A stretch of 64,000 nt of DNA from Streptomyces sp. DH-12. GTDB taxonomy: Bacteria > Actinomycetota > Actinomycetes > Streptomycetales > Streptomycetaceae. The stretch spans positions 496,001-560,000 of the forward strand of contig NZ_PPFB01000001.1 in the NCBI RefSeq assembly GCF_002899455.1, given 5' to 3'. Positions 8,527 to 16,484 of this stretch are shown one piece after another. Position 1 is the first letter of the stretch; each line of letters starts with the position of its first letter. A model generated the notes under the pieces. That model was not told the DNA's origin. It worked only from the letters and a program-made list of their open reading frames with translations, and made no database searches. A program made the translations under genes and the position numbers.

Positions 8527-9933
8527 CTAGCCGCAGCAGCCGCCCGTCGGCGTCTCCTCGGCACCAGCCGCCCCGGCTGCTGCGGTGGGGGTGCCGAGCC
8601 GGACGAGCTGCGGTGCGGGCGTACAGCAGCCGCCACCGTCGCCCTCCGCGGCGCCGGGGGCGTCGAACAGGCCGGCGCCGCCGCAGACTCCGGTTTCGGG
8701 CAGGGTGAGTTCCACGCGGTCGGCGGCTTCGAGGTCGCCGGCGATCGCGGCGGCGACGGAGCGGACCTGTTCGTGGCCGGTCATCGCGAGGAACGTGGGG
8801 GCACGGCCGTAGGACTTCATGCCGACCAGGTAGACGCCCTTCTCGGGGTGGGCGAGCTCGCGGTGGCCGTGCGGGTGGACGGTTCCGCAGGAATGCTGGT
8901 TGGGGTCGATCAGCGGGGCCAGGGCGACGGGGGCCTGGAGGCGCTCGTCCAGGTTCAGGCGCAGCTCGTCGAGGAAGGACAGGTCCGGGCGGAAGCCGGT
9001 CAGGACGATCACTTCGTCGACCGGGTCCAGGTGGCGGCCGTCCTCGCCGACGAGGATCAGGCGGCCGTCGTCCGCCCGTCCGATCACCTCGGTGCGGAAG
9101 CCGGTGACCGCGTCCGCGTGGCCCTCGTCCACGGCGGCCTTCGCCGCCAGGCCCAGGGCGCCGCGCGCCGGAAGCTGGTCGGCCTCTCCCCCGCCGAAGG
9201 TGGAGCCGGAGATGCCCCGGCGCAGGATCCACACGCCCTTGGTGCCCGCGCCGTCGTCGGACCTGGCGAGGTCGGCGAGGTGGGCGAGGGCGGTGAAGGC
9301 GGAGGCGCCGGAGCCGATGACGGCGGTGCGCCTGCCCGCGTAACGGGCGCGGACGGCTGGGTTCTTCAGGTCCGGGACGCGGTAGGTGATCCGGTCCGCG
9401 GCCGCCTTCTCGCCCAGGGCGGGCAGGCCGCTGCCGCCGGCCGGGGACGGCGTGGCCCAGGTGCCGGAGGCGTCGATGACGGCACGTGCGTACACGCGTT
9501 CCTCGCGGCCGTCGGCGTGGGTGACGTGCACGACGAACGGCTGGTTCTCGCGGTCGGCGTCCACGATCCGGTCCCGGCCGGCACGGGAGACGCCGGTGAC
9601 CCGGGCGCCGTAGCGGACGCGGCCGCCGAGGACGTCGGCGAGTGGCTGCAAGTAGAGGTCGGCCCAGTCACCGCCCGAGGGGTGGGCGGCCGGGTCCGGC
9701 CTCGTCCAGCCGGCGGAGGCGAGGAGCTTCTCGGCGGCGGGGTCGACGACTTCACCCCACGTGGAGAACAGCCGTACGTGCGACCACTCGCGGACCGAGG
9801 CGCCGGCCGTGGGCCCTGCTTCGAGGACCCGGGGCTCGATGCCCTGGTCGAGCAGGTGGGCGGCGGCGGCCAGACCCGTGGGGCCTGCTCCGATCACGAT
9901 GACGGGCAGTTCGGCGGTGGCGGGCGCGTTCAC
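8527..9933 (-). CDS. ArsO-like flavin-dependent monooxygenase with Cys-rich tail
   Basis: A 468-residue FAD/NAD(P)H protein associated with arsenic islands in Streptomyces (ArsO type). The start is GTG 9933, with GAGGAG upstream. Motifs: FAD-binding VIVIGAGPTGLAAAAHLL near residue 10, NAD(P)H-binding TAVIGSGASAFTALAHL near residue 215, and an ATG-like segment VLTGFRPDLSFLDEL. The C-terminus is unusual: three cysteine clusters (VCGGAG, GGGCC, GGCCG) in the last 60 residues, which could bind arsenite or another thiophilic metal. It is divergent from an ArsR with shared operator elements between. The role in arsenic resistance is inferred from context; the enzymatic reaction is not established. 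Confidence 0.82.
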   Translation of the reverse strand: MNAPATAELPVIVIGAGPTGLAAAAHLLDQGIEPRVLEAGPTAGASVREWSHVRLFSTWGEVVDPAAEKLLASAGWTRPDPAAHPSGGDWADLYLQPLADVLGGRVRYGARVTGVSRAGRDRIVDADRENQPFVVHVTHADGREERVYARAVIDASGTWATPSPAGGSGLPALGEKAAADRITYRVPDLKNPAVRARYAGRRTAVIGSGASAFTALAHLADLARSDDGAGTKGVWILRRGISGSTFGGGEADQLPARGALGLAAKAAVDEGHADAVTGFRTEVIGRADDGRLILVGEDGRHLDPVDEVIVLTGFRPDLSFLDELRLNLDERLQAPVALAPLIDPNQHSCGTVHPHGHRELAHPEKGVYLVGMKSYGRAPTFLAMTGHEQVRSVAAAIAGDLEAADRVELTLPETGVCGGAGLFDAPGAAEGDGGGCCTPAPQLVRLGTPTAAAGAAGAEETPTGGCCG

Positions 9934-9951
9934 GGCGGCTCCTCGCGTGTT

Positions 9952-10027
9952 TCGACGTCTGTCGATGGCTTGCGCGGCCCAGCATGACACCTGCATCGAT
10001 GAGCGTCAACATAGACATCTATCGAAT
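9952..10027. promoter_or_regulatory. Probable ArsR operators, flavoprotein side
   Basis: TCGAC-GTCT-GTCGA (9952-9965) is a small perfect inverted repeat, and ATAGA-CA-TCTAT (10011-10022) another. The 12-mer GTCAACATAGAC at 10005-10016 recurs exactly at 10210-10221 before the arsR start. These flank the divergent promoters. Confidence 0.65.
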
Positions 10028-10199
10028 TTAGCGGGTGGATCACGGGACACATCGACGGCGCCGTGATGGCGGCCGGTCCGGCCCCACCACCGCCGACGCG
10101 CCGCTGCGGCGCGGGCCGGGACGCGGGCCGTGCGATCGGCCCGGCGCCTGGCCGTCCGCCTCGCGTGCCGGTGACAGGCCTGGAGACCTCCCGCACTGG

Positions 10200-10231
10200 T
10201 TCGACGTATGTCAACATAGACGCATGTCGAA
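10200..10231. promoter_or_regulatory. Probable autoregulatory ArsR operator
   Basis: TTCGAC at 10200-10205 and GTCGAA at 10226-10231 form the outer arms of an imperfect palindrome that contains the second copy of GTCAACATAGAC (10210-10221) and overlaps the arsR start codon at 10224. Binding here would block its own transcription. Confidence 0.65.
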
Positions 10232-10598
10232 TGCCAAGGTGCTGCCGTTGCTCGATCCCGCCGATGGCCAGGTGCCGCCGTGCTGTCCGCCGCTCACCGA
10301 GCGCCCGATGACCGCCGAAGAGGCGGAGACGGCCGCCCGGATGTTCAAGGCGCTCGGCGACCCGGTCCGGCTGCGGCTGTTCTCCGCCGTGGCATCGCAC
10401 GAGGGCGGCGAGGCGTGCGTGTGCGACATCTCCGACGTCGGCGTCTCCCAGCCCACGGTGTCCCACCATCTGAAGAAGCTCAAGGAGGCCGGGCTGCTCA
10501 CCTCCGAGCGGCGTGGCACCTGGGTCTACTACCGGGTGGAGCCGTCCGTACTGGCCGCCATGGGCCGACTGCTGGTGGGGCCGTCGGCTGCCGCATGA
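10224..10598 (+). CDS. arsR: ArsR arsenite-responsive repressor
   Basis: A 124-residue ArsR/SmtB repressor. The winged helix spans roughly residues 38-110: ALGDPVRLRLFSAVAS, then ACVCDISD, the recognition helix SQPTVSHHLKKLKEAGLL and the wing RRGTWVYYRV. The CVC pair is the arsenite-binding site of E. coli-type ArsR; an extra PCCPP near residue 19 could add ligands. Start ATG 10224 (MSNAKVLPLLDP) is inside the operator. Divergent from the ArsO-like gene it probably controls. It differs clearly in sequence from the second ArsR at 13076. Confidence 0.9.
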   Translation: MSNAKVLPLLDPADGQVPPCCPPLTERPMTAEEAETAARMFKALGDPVRLRLFSAVASHEGGEACVCDISDVGVSQPTVSHHLKKLKEAGLLTSERRGTWVYYRVEPSVLAAMGRLLVGPSAAA

Positions 10599-10902
10599 CC
10601 GCAGGCCGACGCCCGCCGGGGCGTCCAGGGACGGGGTCGGCGGCGCGCAGCGGCCATGAGCGGCGGCGGACGAGGCCGGCGGTTGTCATCCGGACGGGAC
10701 GGAGGCTGCCGAGGAGCGGCTGAGCCCGCCTCCGGCCCTGCCGGGAGCGCGTCGGGATCGCCGTCCGGGGCGACGGCGTCGAGGACGGCTTCGCCCTCGA
10801 CGGCAGATGCGTGCGCGCGGCCGGGAGCGGTGCACCTGGAACCGCCCGCGGTCCGGCAGCGCGTCCCCCTCTGATTCCCGGCGGGACTGGTCCCCGCGGC
10901 GC
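10599..10902. other. 304-nt gap between convergent ars genes
   Basis: No coding potential is apparent; the stop codons of arsR (plus) and the second flavoprotein (minus) converge on it. Probably transcription-termination and spacer sequence. Confidence 0.5.
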
Positions 10903-11964
10903 CTACGCGAGAAGGCCGGCGATGTCGCGGGCGGCGTCCCGGGCGGTGCGGCCGACGCCAATGAGCGTGGCCGACGCCGGGCCGGTCCAGTCGCCGTAAC
11001 CGAGCAGGTGCAGCCGTGGCTCGCCCAGGGCGCGGGTGCCGTCGGTGGGGACGCGGCCGCGCGGCCCGCGCAGGCCCAGCGGCGCGAGGTGGGACAGAGC
11101 GGGACGGAAGCCGGTGCACCAGATGACCGCGTCCGCGCCGGCCTGGCTGCCGTCGGCCCACCGGACACCGTCGGCGGTGAACCGGGCGAACATCGGCCTC
11201 GCGGACAGGAGTCCTGCGTCGCGGGCGGCGCGGACCGGCGGTACGGCCACGATGTCGCCGAGCGAGGCCACCCCGCCGGTGTCGCCGCGGCCCGCGTCCA
11301 GGGCGCGACGGCGGGCGGTGGCGACGTCGAACAGGGCCCGGCCGTCGATGTCGTCCGGCAGGAACCGCGGCGGGCGCCGCGTCACCCAGGTCGTCTCGAC
11401 GCGTCCGTCCAGGGCGAGGTCGGCTGCGATCTGGGCACCGGAATTGCCGCCCCCGACCACGAGGACCCGCTTTCCTCCGAATCCGGCCGGGGAACGGTAG
11501 TCCACCGTGTGCAGTTGCCGCCCGGCGAAGACGGACCGGCCGGGGACGGCGGGGAGGAAGGGGCGCGACCACGTGCCGGTCGCGCTGATCACCGCCCGGG
11601 CCCGCCATGTCCCGGCCTCCGACTCGGCCAGGAGCCTGCCGCCGTCGCGGCGTACGGCCCGCACGCGGGCGCCGTGCTGGACGGGCAGGTCGTAGCGCTT
11701 CTCGTAGTCGGTGAGGTAGTCCACCACGTGCCCGGCGTCCGGGTACGTCTCACCGGGCTGGGCGGGCATGAGCCGTCCGGGCAGCGAGGAGTGCCCGGCC
11801 GGGGAGAACAGGTGCAGGGAGTCCCACATGTGCCGCCAGGACCCGCCGGGCGCGGTGCCGGCGTCCAGGATCACGAAGTCGAGGCCCTGGCGGCGCAGGT
11901 GGTAGCCGGCGGCGAGTCCTGCCTGGCCGCCGCCGACCACCACCACGTCCGTGTGCTGGGTCAC
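10903..11964 (-). CDS. arsO: ArsO-type flavin-containing monooxygenase
   Basis: A 353-residue flavoprotein monooxygenase. Start GTG 11964 overlaps the stop of the arsenite pump gene (GTGA), so translation is coupled. Motifs: FAD site [19 protein letters not shown] at residues 7-25, FMO-like [21 protein letters not shown] site [14 protein letters not shown] near residue 160, and [12 protein letters not shown] near residue 285. It ends with the conserved [16 protein letters not shown]. ArsO-type genes are known neighbours of Streptomyces ars operons (arsRBOCT arrangement); the reaction on arsenicals is not firmly known. Confidence 0.88.
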
Positions 11965-13079
11965 GGGGCGGTCGTCACCGCGTCGGCGGCGAACTTCCCG
12001 CGCCAGGCGAGCGCGACGTGGACCAGGCCGATCAGCACCGGGACTTCGATGAGCGGGCCGACGACGCCGGACAGGGCCTGACCGGAGGTGACGCCGAAGG
12101 TGGCGACGGCGACCGCGATGGCCAGCTCGAAGTTGTTGCCCGCCGCGGTGAAGGCGAGGGTCGCGGTGCGGTCGTAGGCCAGGCCCAGGCCCTTGCCGAG
12201 GAGGAAGGCGCCGAAGAACATGACGGCGAAGTACACCAGCAGCGGCAGCGCGATCCGGGCCACGTCCAGCGGCTGGGAGGTGATGGTCCTCCCTTGCAGG
12301 GCGAAGAGGATGACGATCGTGAACAGCAGCCCGTACAGCGCCCACGGGCCGATCCTCGGCAGGAACGTCGCCTCGTAGCCGGTACGGCCCAGCTTCTGCT
12401 CGCCGATGCGGCGGGTCAGGAAGCCGGCCAGCAGCGGGACGCCGAGGAAGACGACGACGTTCAGCGCGATGTGCCACACGGACACGTCCAGGCCCTGGCC
12501 GTCGCCGAGGTTCATCCAGCGCGGCAGGAGGTCGAGGTAGAACCAGCCCAGCAGCCCGAACGCGAGGACCTGGAAGACCGAGTTCAGTGCGACCAGGACG
12601 GCCGCGGCCTCGCGGTCGCCGCAGGCGAGGTCGTTCCAGATGATGACCATGGCGATGCAGCGGGCCAGGCCGACGACGATCAGACCGGTGCGGTACTCGG
12701 GCAGGTCCGGAAGGAAGGTCCACGCCAGGGCGAACATCACCGCAGGGCCGACGATCCAGTTGATGACCAGCGAGGAGACCATCAGCTTCTTGTCGCCGGT
12801 CACGCGGTCGAGCCGGTCGTAGCGGACCTTGGCCAGGACCGGGTACATCATCACGAGCAGGCCGAGCGCGATCGGCAGGGAGATCCCGCCGATCTCGATC
12901 CTCGCGAGCGCGTCGTTCATCCCCGGGATCAGGCGGCCCAGGCCCAGGCCGACGGCCATGGCGAGCAGGATCCACACCGCGAGGTAGCGGTCGAGGGTGG
13001 AGAGCTTCTTGACGATCGAGTCGTCCCCGGCCGCGTCGGCGCCTCGGGCGCGTGCGGTGGCGGGCTCGGTGGAGGTCAC
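11961..13079 (-). CDS. acr3: ACR3-family arsenite efflux transporter
   Basis: A 372-residue polytopic membrane protein that exports As(III). It starts at GTG 13079, overlapping the ArsR stop by the GTGA arrangement. About ten hydrophobic segments are visible, beginning after residue 40 ([16 protein letters not shown]). The family signature Cys is in [19 protein letters not shown] (near residue 135), the residue essential for transport in ACR3 proteins. Also typical are [18 protein letters not shown] and the C-terminal [13 protein letters not shown]. It forms a coupled arsR-acr3-arsO operon, induced by arsenite through ArsR. Confidence 0.95.
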
Positions 13080-13384
13080 GGACAGGCCCTCTTGTTCTCG
13101 GCGGCGGTGCGGGCCAAGGCGGCGAGTCCGGCGAACTGCTCGGACAGGCCGGCCAGGACCTCGGGCTTGAGCTTGTAGTAGACGAAGCGGCCGCACGGCT
13201 CGGTCTCCACGATCCCGGCCTCGCGCAACACCTTCATGTGGTTGGACAGGTTGGTCTGCCTGGCTCCGGTCTCCTCCACCAGGTGCGTCGTACAGAGCGT
13301 CTCGCGCGCCAGCAGGGTGACGATCTTCAGGCGGAGCGGATCGCCCAGCACCCGGATCACCTCAGGATCGACTGAAGTCAGCAT
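13076..13384 (-). CDS. arsR: ArsR-family repressor of the ACR3 operon
   Basis: A 102-residue ArsR repressor, first gene of the arsR-acr3-arsO operon. The fold runs from [20 protein letters not shown] through the recognition helix [18 protein letters not shown] to the wing CGRFVYYKL. It lacks CVC; candidate arsenite ligands are Cys in [11 protein letters not shown] and in EPCGRFVYY, a layout like Corynebacterium-type ArsR with differently placed cysteines. A palindrome overlaps its start. Divergent from arsC. Confidence 0.9.
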
Positions 13385-13422
13385 GCGCTGATACTCTCAC
13401 ATCACTGCTCGCTGATATCAGC
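13378..13422. promoter_or_regulatory. Operators of the arsR-acr3 / arsC divergent promoter
   Basis: TCAGC-ATGC-GCTGA at 13378-13391 spans the arsR start codon, and the perfect 12-bp palindrome GCTGATATCAGC lies at 13411-13422. Both share the GCTGA half-site, so one ArsR dimer type probably binds both and controls both directions. Confidence 0.75.
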
Positions 13423-13485
13423 CGAAGCTGACGTCATCGGCGGCGGTGGGCGGTATCCGTCCTACGACGAGAGAGAACGATCACC

Positions 13486-13908
13486 ATGGCCGACAAGCCG
13501 TCCGTCCTGTTCGTCTGCGTCCACAACGCAGGCCGCTCCCAGATGGCCGCAGCATGGCTGACCCACCTGGCCGGTGACCGCGTCGAGGTCCGCTCCGCCG
13601 GCTCCGACCCCGGCGACCGCGTCAACCCGGCCGCCGTCGCGGCCATGGCCGAGGTCGGCATCGACATCTCCGCCCGGACGCCGAAGTCGCTCACCGCCGA
13701 CGCGGTCCGTGAGTCGGACGTCTGCATCACGATGGGGTGCGGCGACACCTGCCCGGTGTTCCCCGGCAAGCGCTACCTCGACTGGAAGCTCGACGACCCG
13801 GCCGGACAGGGTGTCGACGCCGTCCGCCCCATCCGCGATGAGATCAAGGCCCTCGTGGAGGACCTGATCGCCGAGATCGCCCCGGCGACGCCGGAGGGTA
13901 CGGCGTGA
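13486..13908 (+). CDS. arsC: Arsenate reductase, LMW-PTP type
   Basis: A 140-residue cytosolic thiol-dependent arsenate reductase that turns As(V) into As(III) for export by ACR3. The P-loop CVHNAGRSQMAAAW (residues 11-24) contains the nucleophilic Cys; a pair in MGCGDTCPVFPGKRY (near residues 84-98) supplies the resolving cysteines of the redox relay, followed by LDWKLDDPAGQ. Length and motifs match thioredoxin- or mycothiol-linked enzymes. It is divergent from arsR-acr3-arsO with GCTGA operators between. Its stop overlaps a GTG of a short frame. Confidence 0.94.
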   Translation: MADKPSVLFVCVHNAGRSQMAAAWLTHLAGDRVEVRSAGSDPGDRVNPAAVAAMAEVGIDISARTPKSLTADAVRESDVCITMGCGDTCPVFPGKRYLDWKLDDPAGQGVDAVRPIRDEIKALVEDLIAEIAPATPEGTA

Positions 13909-14279: not shown

Positions 14280-14780
14280 ATGAGCCTTCGGGATTCCGAC
14301 GAGCCGGCTACGGCTGCGCCCGGTGGGCCGCAGTCCGGTGGCGGGCGCTGCAGCCCGGCCTGCTGCGGGCCGCCCAGGACCGGTGAGGCTGCCGGGCCCG
14401 ACGAGCCCGTCGCGGCTCGTCACCGGAGCGGCCCGCTGGTCCCCCGTCAGGCGGGTGGGCGCCTGTGCGTCGCCTCGCGCGCTTCGGCGAGGGCTCGCTG
14501 CCTGACGCTGCCGCCGAACAACTGCATCGCGACGGCGGCCAGGACGTCGTCCTCGCCGATGGTCCGCCCGTCCCCCTCGCGGGTGGAAGCGACCCGCAGG
14601 GGATCCTCGGAGGAAGGGGGCGGGACCGGTTCGCCCGGCATCGTCAGAATGACCGTCCCGAAACGTCGGACTCCGCCCTCGCGGACGACCGTGGCCGCGT
14701 CCCGGACGAGGCGCATCAGGAACACGCTCGCGATGCCGTTCAGTTCGCGGACCATCGCCGGTACGGCCCTGACCTCCTGA
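14280..14780 (+). CDS. Cys-rich frame overlapping the histone-like gene; doubtful
   Basis: ATG 14280 has AGGGG about nine bases upstream and opens SLRDSDEPATAAPGGPQSG, then GGRCSPACCGPP, a thiol cluster like the arsenic-binding tails of the neighbouring flavoprotein. The first 50 or so residues look real; beyond about nt 14447 the frame runs antisense through the end of the histone-fold gene and looks like chance coding. The most likely reading is the 5' remnant of an arsenic-linked gene whose 3' part was lost. The other possibility is a 166-residue Cys-rich protein. Confidence 0.35.
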   Translation: MSLRDSDEPATAAPGGPQSGGGRCSPACCGPPRTGEAAGPDEPVAARHRSGPLVPRQAGGRLCVASRASARARCLTLPPNNCIATAARTSSSPMVRPSPSRVEATRRGSSEEGGGTGSPGIVRMTVPKRRTPPSRTTVAASRTRRIRNTLAMPFSSRTIAGTALTS

Positions 14781-15178
14781 CGCCGCAGCAGCTTCCTGAC
14801 CCCCGCCTCGAACCTGTGCGCGCCGGCCACCGCGCTCAGCTTGCGCTCGCCCGACCTGCCGCCCCTGCGAGACGGCACGACGGCACCCCCGGCGTCGTGC
14901 ACGGCACCGTTCAGGCGCCGGAACGTCGGGCTGTGGGCGTACCATTCGTTCGCCACATCCACCTCCACGTTCCGGTCGATCGCCGAGACAAGGTGCCGGG
15001 GAAGGAGCACCCTCCGGCCCTCCTCCGACGCCGCTTCCCTCGCGCCGTCGATGATCTCCGTCAGCAATGTGCTCGTCACCGACGCCGCAGCTCGCACCGC
15101 GGGGCGGGACACGTGCATCCACGTCACGTCTCTGAAGGCGGCTCTCACGACAGCGGCACTGAACGGCGGGACATCCAT
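14447..15178 (-). CDS. Tandem histone-fold protein, H2A-like then H2B-like
   Basis: A 243-residue protein that I read as two histone folds in one chain. Unit 1 (about residues 7-70): short helix SAAVVRAAFRDV, long helix from RPAVRAAASVTSTLLTEIID, loop GRRVLL and helix PRHLVSAIDRN. The run RVLLPRHLVSAI aligns without gaps to eukaryotic H2A RIIPRHLQLAI, with LLTEIIDGAREAA matching LTAEILELAGNAA. A GGAVVPSRRG stretch (97-106) resembles the H2A GGVLPNI docking segment. Unit 2 (about 122-235): FEAGVRKLLRRQ, VPAMVRELNGIASVFLMRL, a 35-residue loop insertion, then TIGEDDVLAAVAMQLFGG and RALAEA, resembling H2B TITSREIQTAVRLLLPGEL. Many Arg and Lys residues suggest DNA binding. No weak-homology search was possible; fold and order are inferred from these alignments. 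Neighbours give no functional hint. Confidence 0.72.
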   Translation of the reverse strand: MDVPPFSAAVVRAAFRDVTWMHVSRPAVRAAASVTSTLLTEIIDGAREAASEEGRRVLLPRHLVSAIDRNVEVDVANEWYAHSPTFRRLNGAVHDAGGAVVPSRRGGRSGERKLSAVAGAHRFEAGVRKLLRRQEVRAVPAMVRELNGIASVFLMRLVRDAATVVREGGVRRFGTVILTMPGEPVPPPSSEDPLRVASTREGDGRTIGEDDVLAAVAMQLFGGSVRQRALAEAREATHRRPPA

Positions 15179-16112: not shown

Positions 16113-16484
16113 GTGTTGAGCAACTCCGGGCGGGAGCTCACAGCACTCGACAGCCTTCCCCACCTCACCCAGGCAGTGGTCCATGGCGACCTCGGTGCCG
16201 GAAACGTCCTGTGGGAGTGGACGCACGGCCTGCCGCACCTCTCCGGGGTACTCGACTGGGACGACGTCACACTCGGCGACCCGGCCGAGGACCTCGCGGC
16301 CATCGGCGCCGGCCACGGCCCCGAGGTCCTGGACCGGGTGCTCGCCCTGGGCACCTGGTCAGACCACGGACTCCTCACTCGCATCGCGACGATCCGCGGC
16401 ACATTCGCCCTGCAGCAAGCCCTCTGCGCAATCCGCGACGGCGACGAGGAAGAACTCGCGGACGGCCTGGCCGGCTACCGCTGA
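16113..16484 (+). pseudogene. Aminoglycoside phosphotransferase, C-lobe fragment
   Basis: 123 codons encode only the catalytic half of an APH-family kinase. The loop VVHGDLGAGNVLWEW (HGD...N, near residue 24) and the metal-binding GVLDWDDVTLGDPAEDLA are intact, followed by normal C-terminal helices. Full-length members are 270-320 residues; the N-lobe with the ATP-binding Lys is absent. GTG 16113 does have a good GGAGGGAGG site, so the fragment may be translated, but a functional kinase is unlikely. Confidence 0.75.

Follow-up and report, generated by a model that had tools for sequence, protein, structure and literature searches.

Which protein is encoded at positions 14447..15178 (reverse strand) of a 64,000-nucleotide stretch of Streptomyces sp. 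DH-12 (contig NZ_PPFB01000001.1, positions 496,001 to 560,000; the whole stretch is termed the window), and how has its family spread? A reading made without database searches, referred to below as the sequence-only reading, had proposed a tandem histone-fold protein with an H2A-like half followed by an H2B-like half. The 243-residue product is predicted to comprise two histone folds in one chain, in H2A-H2B-like order, and the explanation considered probable is that this single-chain protein binds DNA and that its family has travelled through Streptomyces as a passenger of an IS5-type insertion sequence (IS).

A family with a recurrent histone signal

The open reading frame (ORF), with an ATG start, was present together with the motifs quoted in the sequence-only reading. 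Of 7999 candidate proteins scored, 414 matched the window protein at E ≤ 1e-3. Among the best 120 of these 414 matches, the closest relative was 93% identical and the next ones approximately 65–72% identical, over nearly the full length. Most were named 'hypothetical protein', and some sources gave 'histone H3/H4' or 'Histone H2A/H2B/H3'; the resemblance had therefore been flagged earlier by annotators.

Against Pfam, the window protein scored under the cut-off with TAFII28 (E 0.0026, 18.1 bits, cut-off 27), Histone (PF00125; 15.1 bits, cut-off 26.4) and CBFD_NFYB_HMF (14.3 bits, cut-off 21.4), and a scan of NCBIfam returned no match. When 22 members were scanned singly at E ≤ 1, TAFII28 was matched by 21, Histone by 19 (best E 7.9e-5) and CBFD_NFYB_HMF by five. 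The histone signal is sub-threshold in the single window sequence, yet recurrent across the family. The DUF1931 Pfam model matched neither the window protein at E ≤ 10 nor any of the 22 members at E ≤ 1.

Predicted two-fold structure

AlphaFold2 models of the window protein and of one relative, superposed on histones, predicted a doublet of helix-loop-helix-loop-helix folds, H2A-like and then H2B-like, with central helices of 28 and 27 residues and a third helix of 11 residues in both. Fold 1 (residues 8–70; 14969..15157, reverse strand, as are all features of the protein; VIA rows for residues 1–91) was predicted to have helices at residues 8–18, 25–52 and 60–70, and fold 2 (residues 120–219; 14522..14821) at residues 120–133, 140–166 and 209–219. 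The linker between them (residues 92–118; 14825..14905) carries a net charge of +3 and was predicted to be disordered, with a predicted local distance difference test (pLDDT) score below 50. A long loop (residues 168–204; 14567..14677; pLDDT below 50 at 171–202) separates helices 2 and 3 of fold 2. After fold 2 the model placed a long H2B-type C-terminal helix (residues 224–238; 14465..14509) where the last helix of H2B lies, and fold 2 plus this helix of the relative's model superposed on chains in the H2B position.

The proposed tandem H2A-H2B interpretation was partly supported by these analyses. The H2A likeness of fold 1 was marginal by sequence, and the predicted structure lay nearer to H2A. 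For the second half, the proposed H2B likeness was not borne out by sequence (the best match in the window protein was H4, E 0.006, and the second half of the relative had none) and emerged in the predicted structure only. Subtyping each half of a relative by sequence gave nothing useful. The GGAVVP stretch, which had been compared with the H2A docking region, sits in the low-scoring linker.

Basic residues and DNA binding

The isoelectric point (pI) of the window protein is 11.15, and over 79 copies the median was 10.4 and the minimum 9.45. Across the 77 copies that form the mobile clade described below, R55 was invariant, position 57 was K or R in 77, and R122 was found in 77, R25 in 73, R16 in 74 and R205 in 74; T206 occurred in 75, D211 in 75 and D62 in 76. 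The R-x-T...D motif of nucleosomal histones (PMC11390915) was placed on the family by an alignment made by eye. The fold, the basic pI and the conserved basic residues in loops and first helices suggest DNA binding; the protein would likely bind and bend or wrap a short stretch of DNA. An architectural DNA-binding role is the favoured form of any service to element or host.

Remnants of an IS5-type element beside some copies of the gene

The loci collected numbered 90 (the window, 69 named loci and 20 regions), of which 89 contained the gene and 85 remained after four duplicates were dropped. Many right ends consisted of the last codons of a transposase followed by an inverted repeat. The transposase tail (at most 12 of 34 mismatches) was found in 22 of the 85 loci and 0 of 488 control windows, and its distance from the gene was the same in 17 contexts. 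The right inverted repeat (at most 4 of 18 mismatches) was located at 17 of 86 places (the 85 loci and plasmid locus L227) and in 0 of 398 control windows. In six of the 17 it was directly followed by TNA, the target motif of this IS (background 0.022, binomial tail 1.2e-6). Transposase remnants lay upstream of the gene in 5 of 85 loci.

One locus in S. flaveus, L067, was complete (9169–10795, 1627 bp). Between two copies of TTA, a perfect 3-bp duplication, it has the left repeat, broken frames of the transposase, the histone gene, the tail of the transposase and the right repeat, in that order. L060 also had both repeats, but with TAA and TAC. With the L067 stretch as query against 392 genomes, several histone units ended at the right end of the element (query 2596–2600) and their left ends varied, a pattern that would fit one-ended or surrogate-end transposition.

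Related IS copies were found in 16 of 18 genomes searched, with 14 matches in the window's own genome. Nine of 30 IS loci fetched had both ends, 846–858 bp apart, and six of these nine were bordered by identical TAA or TTA. The two ORFs of this IS of approximately 850 bp match DUF4096 (IS4/5-type) and DDE_Tnp_1.

Given the IS tail, the right repeat with TNA and the complete L067, spread of the gene as a passenger of the IS is most likely. The family would likely move with the small IS5-type element, copies without a transposase would be moved by the transposase of intact IS copies in the same genomes, and the window copy would be a settled descendant of the same family. As judged from sequence, it is the family, and not the window copy itself, that is tied to the element.

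A degraded histone copy in S. fumigatiscleroticus (L126) has a perfect IS tail together with the right repeat. On a 2.35 Mb linear plasmid typed as mobilizable (NZ_CP109481.1), locus L227 holds the histone unit, a perfect tail, the right repeat and TAA; such a plasmid copy may offer a way from one strain to another.

A bolder and less likely proposal is that the IS has adopted the H2A-H2B-like single-chain histone as a chromatin protein of its own and carries it from genome to genome, and that the histone packages, bends or shields DNA to the advantage of the element, in the way that H-NS- or Lsr2-type proteins are carried by plasmids and phages. If true, this would be the first transposon-borne histone.

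Genomic contexts and distribution

The 72 loci that had 3 kb or more of flank on either side fell into 59 distinct contexts. Five groups shared a context, the largest comprising six loci. Shared DNA ended abruptly between unrelated contexts, even among copies 97–98% identical, mostly 75–375 bp before the start on the left and up to approximately 800 bp after it on the right. No general conserved neighbour was found with a rough gene caller based on GC content at third codon positions, which missed the window's histone gene and one copy.

A wider actinobacterial family was rejected: a sample of the class gave a match in 9 of 394 genomes, in a single one of its 137 genera, and one of these matches (G317), found opposite a reading frame that resembles a penicillin-binding protein, was discounted as a chance match. 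Within the genus, 49 of 392 genomes matched at E ≤ 0.01; in several the match was a fragment or contained stops, and one (G414, E 0.002) was weak. The named genomes contributed 69 loci in Streptomyces, Kitasatospora, Actinacidiphila and Yinghuangia, and four plasmid records came from Streptomyces and Embleya. The window's own genome holds one copy, plus a match at E 0.11.

A phage or virus origin was rejected: there was no match among 50,697 phage records at E ≤ 1, no relative in a pattern scan of IMG/VR, and a best E of 0.29 in PHROGs. Integration linked to tRNA genes was also set aside, since a scan of 32 short loci with ARAGORN, which did not extend to wider flanks, detected no tRNA.

Selection on resident copies

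In a tree of the 85 rows (rooted at the midpoint for display only; bootstrap not settled), inner branches were short and tips long. The eight rows of the window clade, which has no visible IS ends, were split from the other 77 by a 100/100 branch and form the sister of the mobile clade.

These copies bear on whether the histone is a passenger kept by its host, as a minor nucleoid or DNA-protection protein of occasional advantage with the IS as vehicle only. Such a role would accord with the full-length frame being open in 79 of 85 copies, with amino-acid-changing substitutions about half as frequent as expected (a ratio of 0.53, from 3321 changing against 2057 silent differences relative to the consensus of the 77 mobile copies), and with one locus common to a set of related species, whose flanks there are similar over kilobases. 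Resident copies, however, change fast. The ratio of nonsynonymous to synonymous substitution rates (dN/dS), by a simple counting method in eight locus pairs with shared flanks, which share rows and so are dependent, was 0.91, 0.98, 0.59, 0.71, 0.48, 0.20, 0.58 and 0.64 for the histone against neighbour medians of 0.25, 0.27, 0.23, 0.26, 0.26, 0.32, 0.30 and 0.34, respectively. In seven of eight pairs the histone value (0.48–0.98) exceeded the neighbour medians (0.23–0.34), the eighth being 0.20 against 0.32; selection on resident copies is therefore weak. This fits maintenance by spread more than a vital host role, and rapid adaptive change may also account for it. With a partial or better match in only 49 of the 392 same-genus genomes as a further point against it, the host-kept passenger is judged unlikely.

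An ALF-repeat companion in one sub-clade

An ALF-repeat ORF (PF03752) lay less than 1 kb upstream of the histone gene on the same strand in 4 of 88 loci (L044, L045, L046 and L056), all in one sub-clade; that of L056 (8603–9412) scored 154 bits and has a signal-peptide-like start. DNA traces of it were present in L052 and L047, and plasmid locus L229 has an annotated ALF-repeat coding sequence upstream that tblastn missed. In the umbrella toxins of Streptomyces, the ring is built of ALF repeats (PMC11062931). A defence system was rejected, as PADLOC gave no hit.

The folds could instead serve protein contacts rather than DNA, as in TAFs, SAGA or the SOS histone domain. The confinement of the ALF link to one sub-clade, the PADLOC result, the basic pI and the conserved basic loop residues all argue against such a role, which is accordingly held to be distinctly unlikely.

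Evidence against the proposed carriage by the IS

Several observations weigh against a DNA-binding IS passenger. Both repeats with a perfect duplication were found in L067 only, 83 of 85 loci had no recognisable left repeat, and the tail was absent from 63 of 85 copies. An empty target site was not found. Copies of the ALF-associated sub-clade share a unit that extends further upstream and includes the ALF-repeat ORF. Beside the window copy there is neither an IS end nor a transposase scrap (15 of 34 mismatches, the chance level), and this copy carries V57 and H62 at basic or motif places kept elsewhere. A Foldseek search returned nothing at E ≤ 0.001.

Spread by ordinary transfer of genes and by recombination in IS-rich chromosome arms, with the IS scraps incidental, would suit the many copies without a tail, the widely varying left ends and the position of L016/L039 in a region with other multi-copy DNA, but is very improbable in view of a tail at fixed distance in 17 contexts, ends at an inverted repeat with the target preference of the IS, and the complete element at L067.

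Neighbouring genes in the window

Outside the histone unit, Pfam hits identified arsenic-type neighbours at 11961..13908 (entered without a strand): an SBF-family transporter, an ArsR-type regulator and an LMWPc arsenate-reductase-like gene. The last (13486–13908) is found downstream of the histone gene both in the window and in S. pseudogriseolus L066, which has collinear blocks in common with the window copy including this gene. In L069, which belongs to the other clade, the downstream gene is 80% alike; this may reflect chance or an old shared landing site. At 16113–16484 there is a piece of a phosphotransferase (APH, PF01636 positions 155–212 of 239), apparently without its N-terminal part.

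Comparison with known systems

The archaeal doublet HMk of Methanopyrus kandleri (PDB 1f1e) shows 20–21% identity, is approximately 90–110 residues shorter, and is without the family's basic linker, long loop and C-terminal helix. HMk is not known to be mobile. The Marseillevirus and Melbournevirus doublets (7n8n, 9cvt) are viral nucleosome proteins of the order H2B-H2A, whereas the first fold of the family is predicted to be nearer H2A and the second nearer H2B. DUF1931 bacterial pseudodimers (1wwi, 1r4v), said to lack DNA-binding residues (PMC12701072, PMC13088155), differ in that the family has no match to their Pfam model. The bacterial alpha3 histones (HBb, FtF) are likewise bacterial histone-fold proteins, but their third helix has 3–4 residues (PMC11390915), in contrast to the 11 predicted in both folds of the family, which has two folds per chain.

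Full-length nucleosomal-type histones have been described as archaeal only (PMC11390915). The strings 'strepto' and 'actinom'/'actino' were absent from the main texts of PMC11390915, PMC12701072 and PMC10627809, and neither the family nor a histone as IS passenger was found in the available parts of the literature, including PMC13088155 and PMC2266710; supplementary tables may list the proteins. According to its models, the family is a real, predicted two-fold family and a new variant of the histone doublet. It would offer a culturable genus for testing a histone and, if it moves as IS cargo, make the jumping of a histone between genomes directly testable.

Bacterial histones are described as rare and patchy, occurring in 1.86% of genomes (PMC10627809), and an IS-borne two-fold histone in Streptomyces would explain this patchiness by a concrete vehicle. 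Transporter IS and mobile insertion cassettes likewise carry inverted repeats round an unrelated passenger, some without a working transposase (PMC9330008, PMC3129680). The passengers named in the available parts of these sources are resistance, virulence, metabolism and toxin-antitoxin genes, with no histone among them, and the present family differs further in that most of its copies have lost one or both ends.
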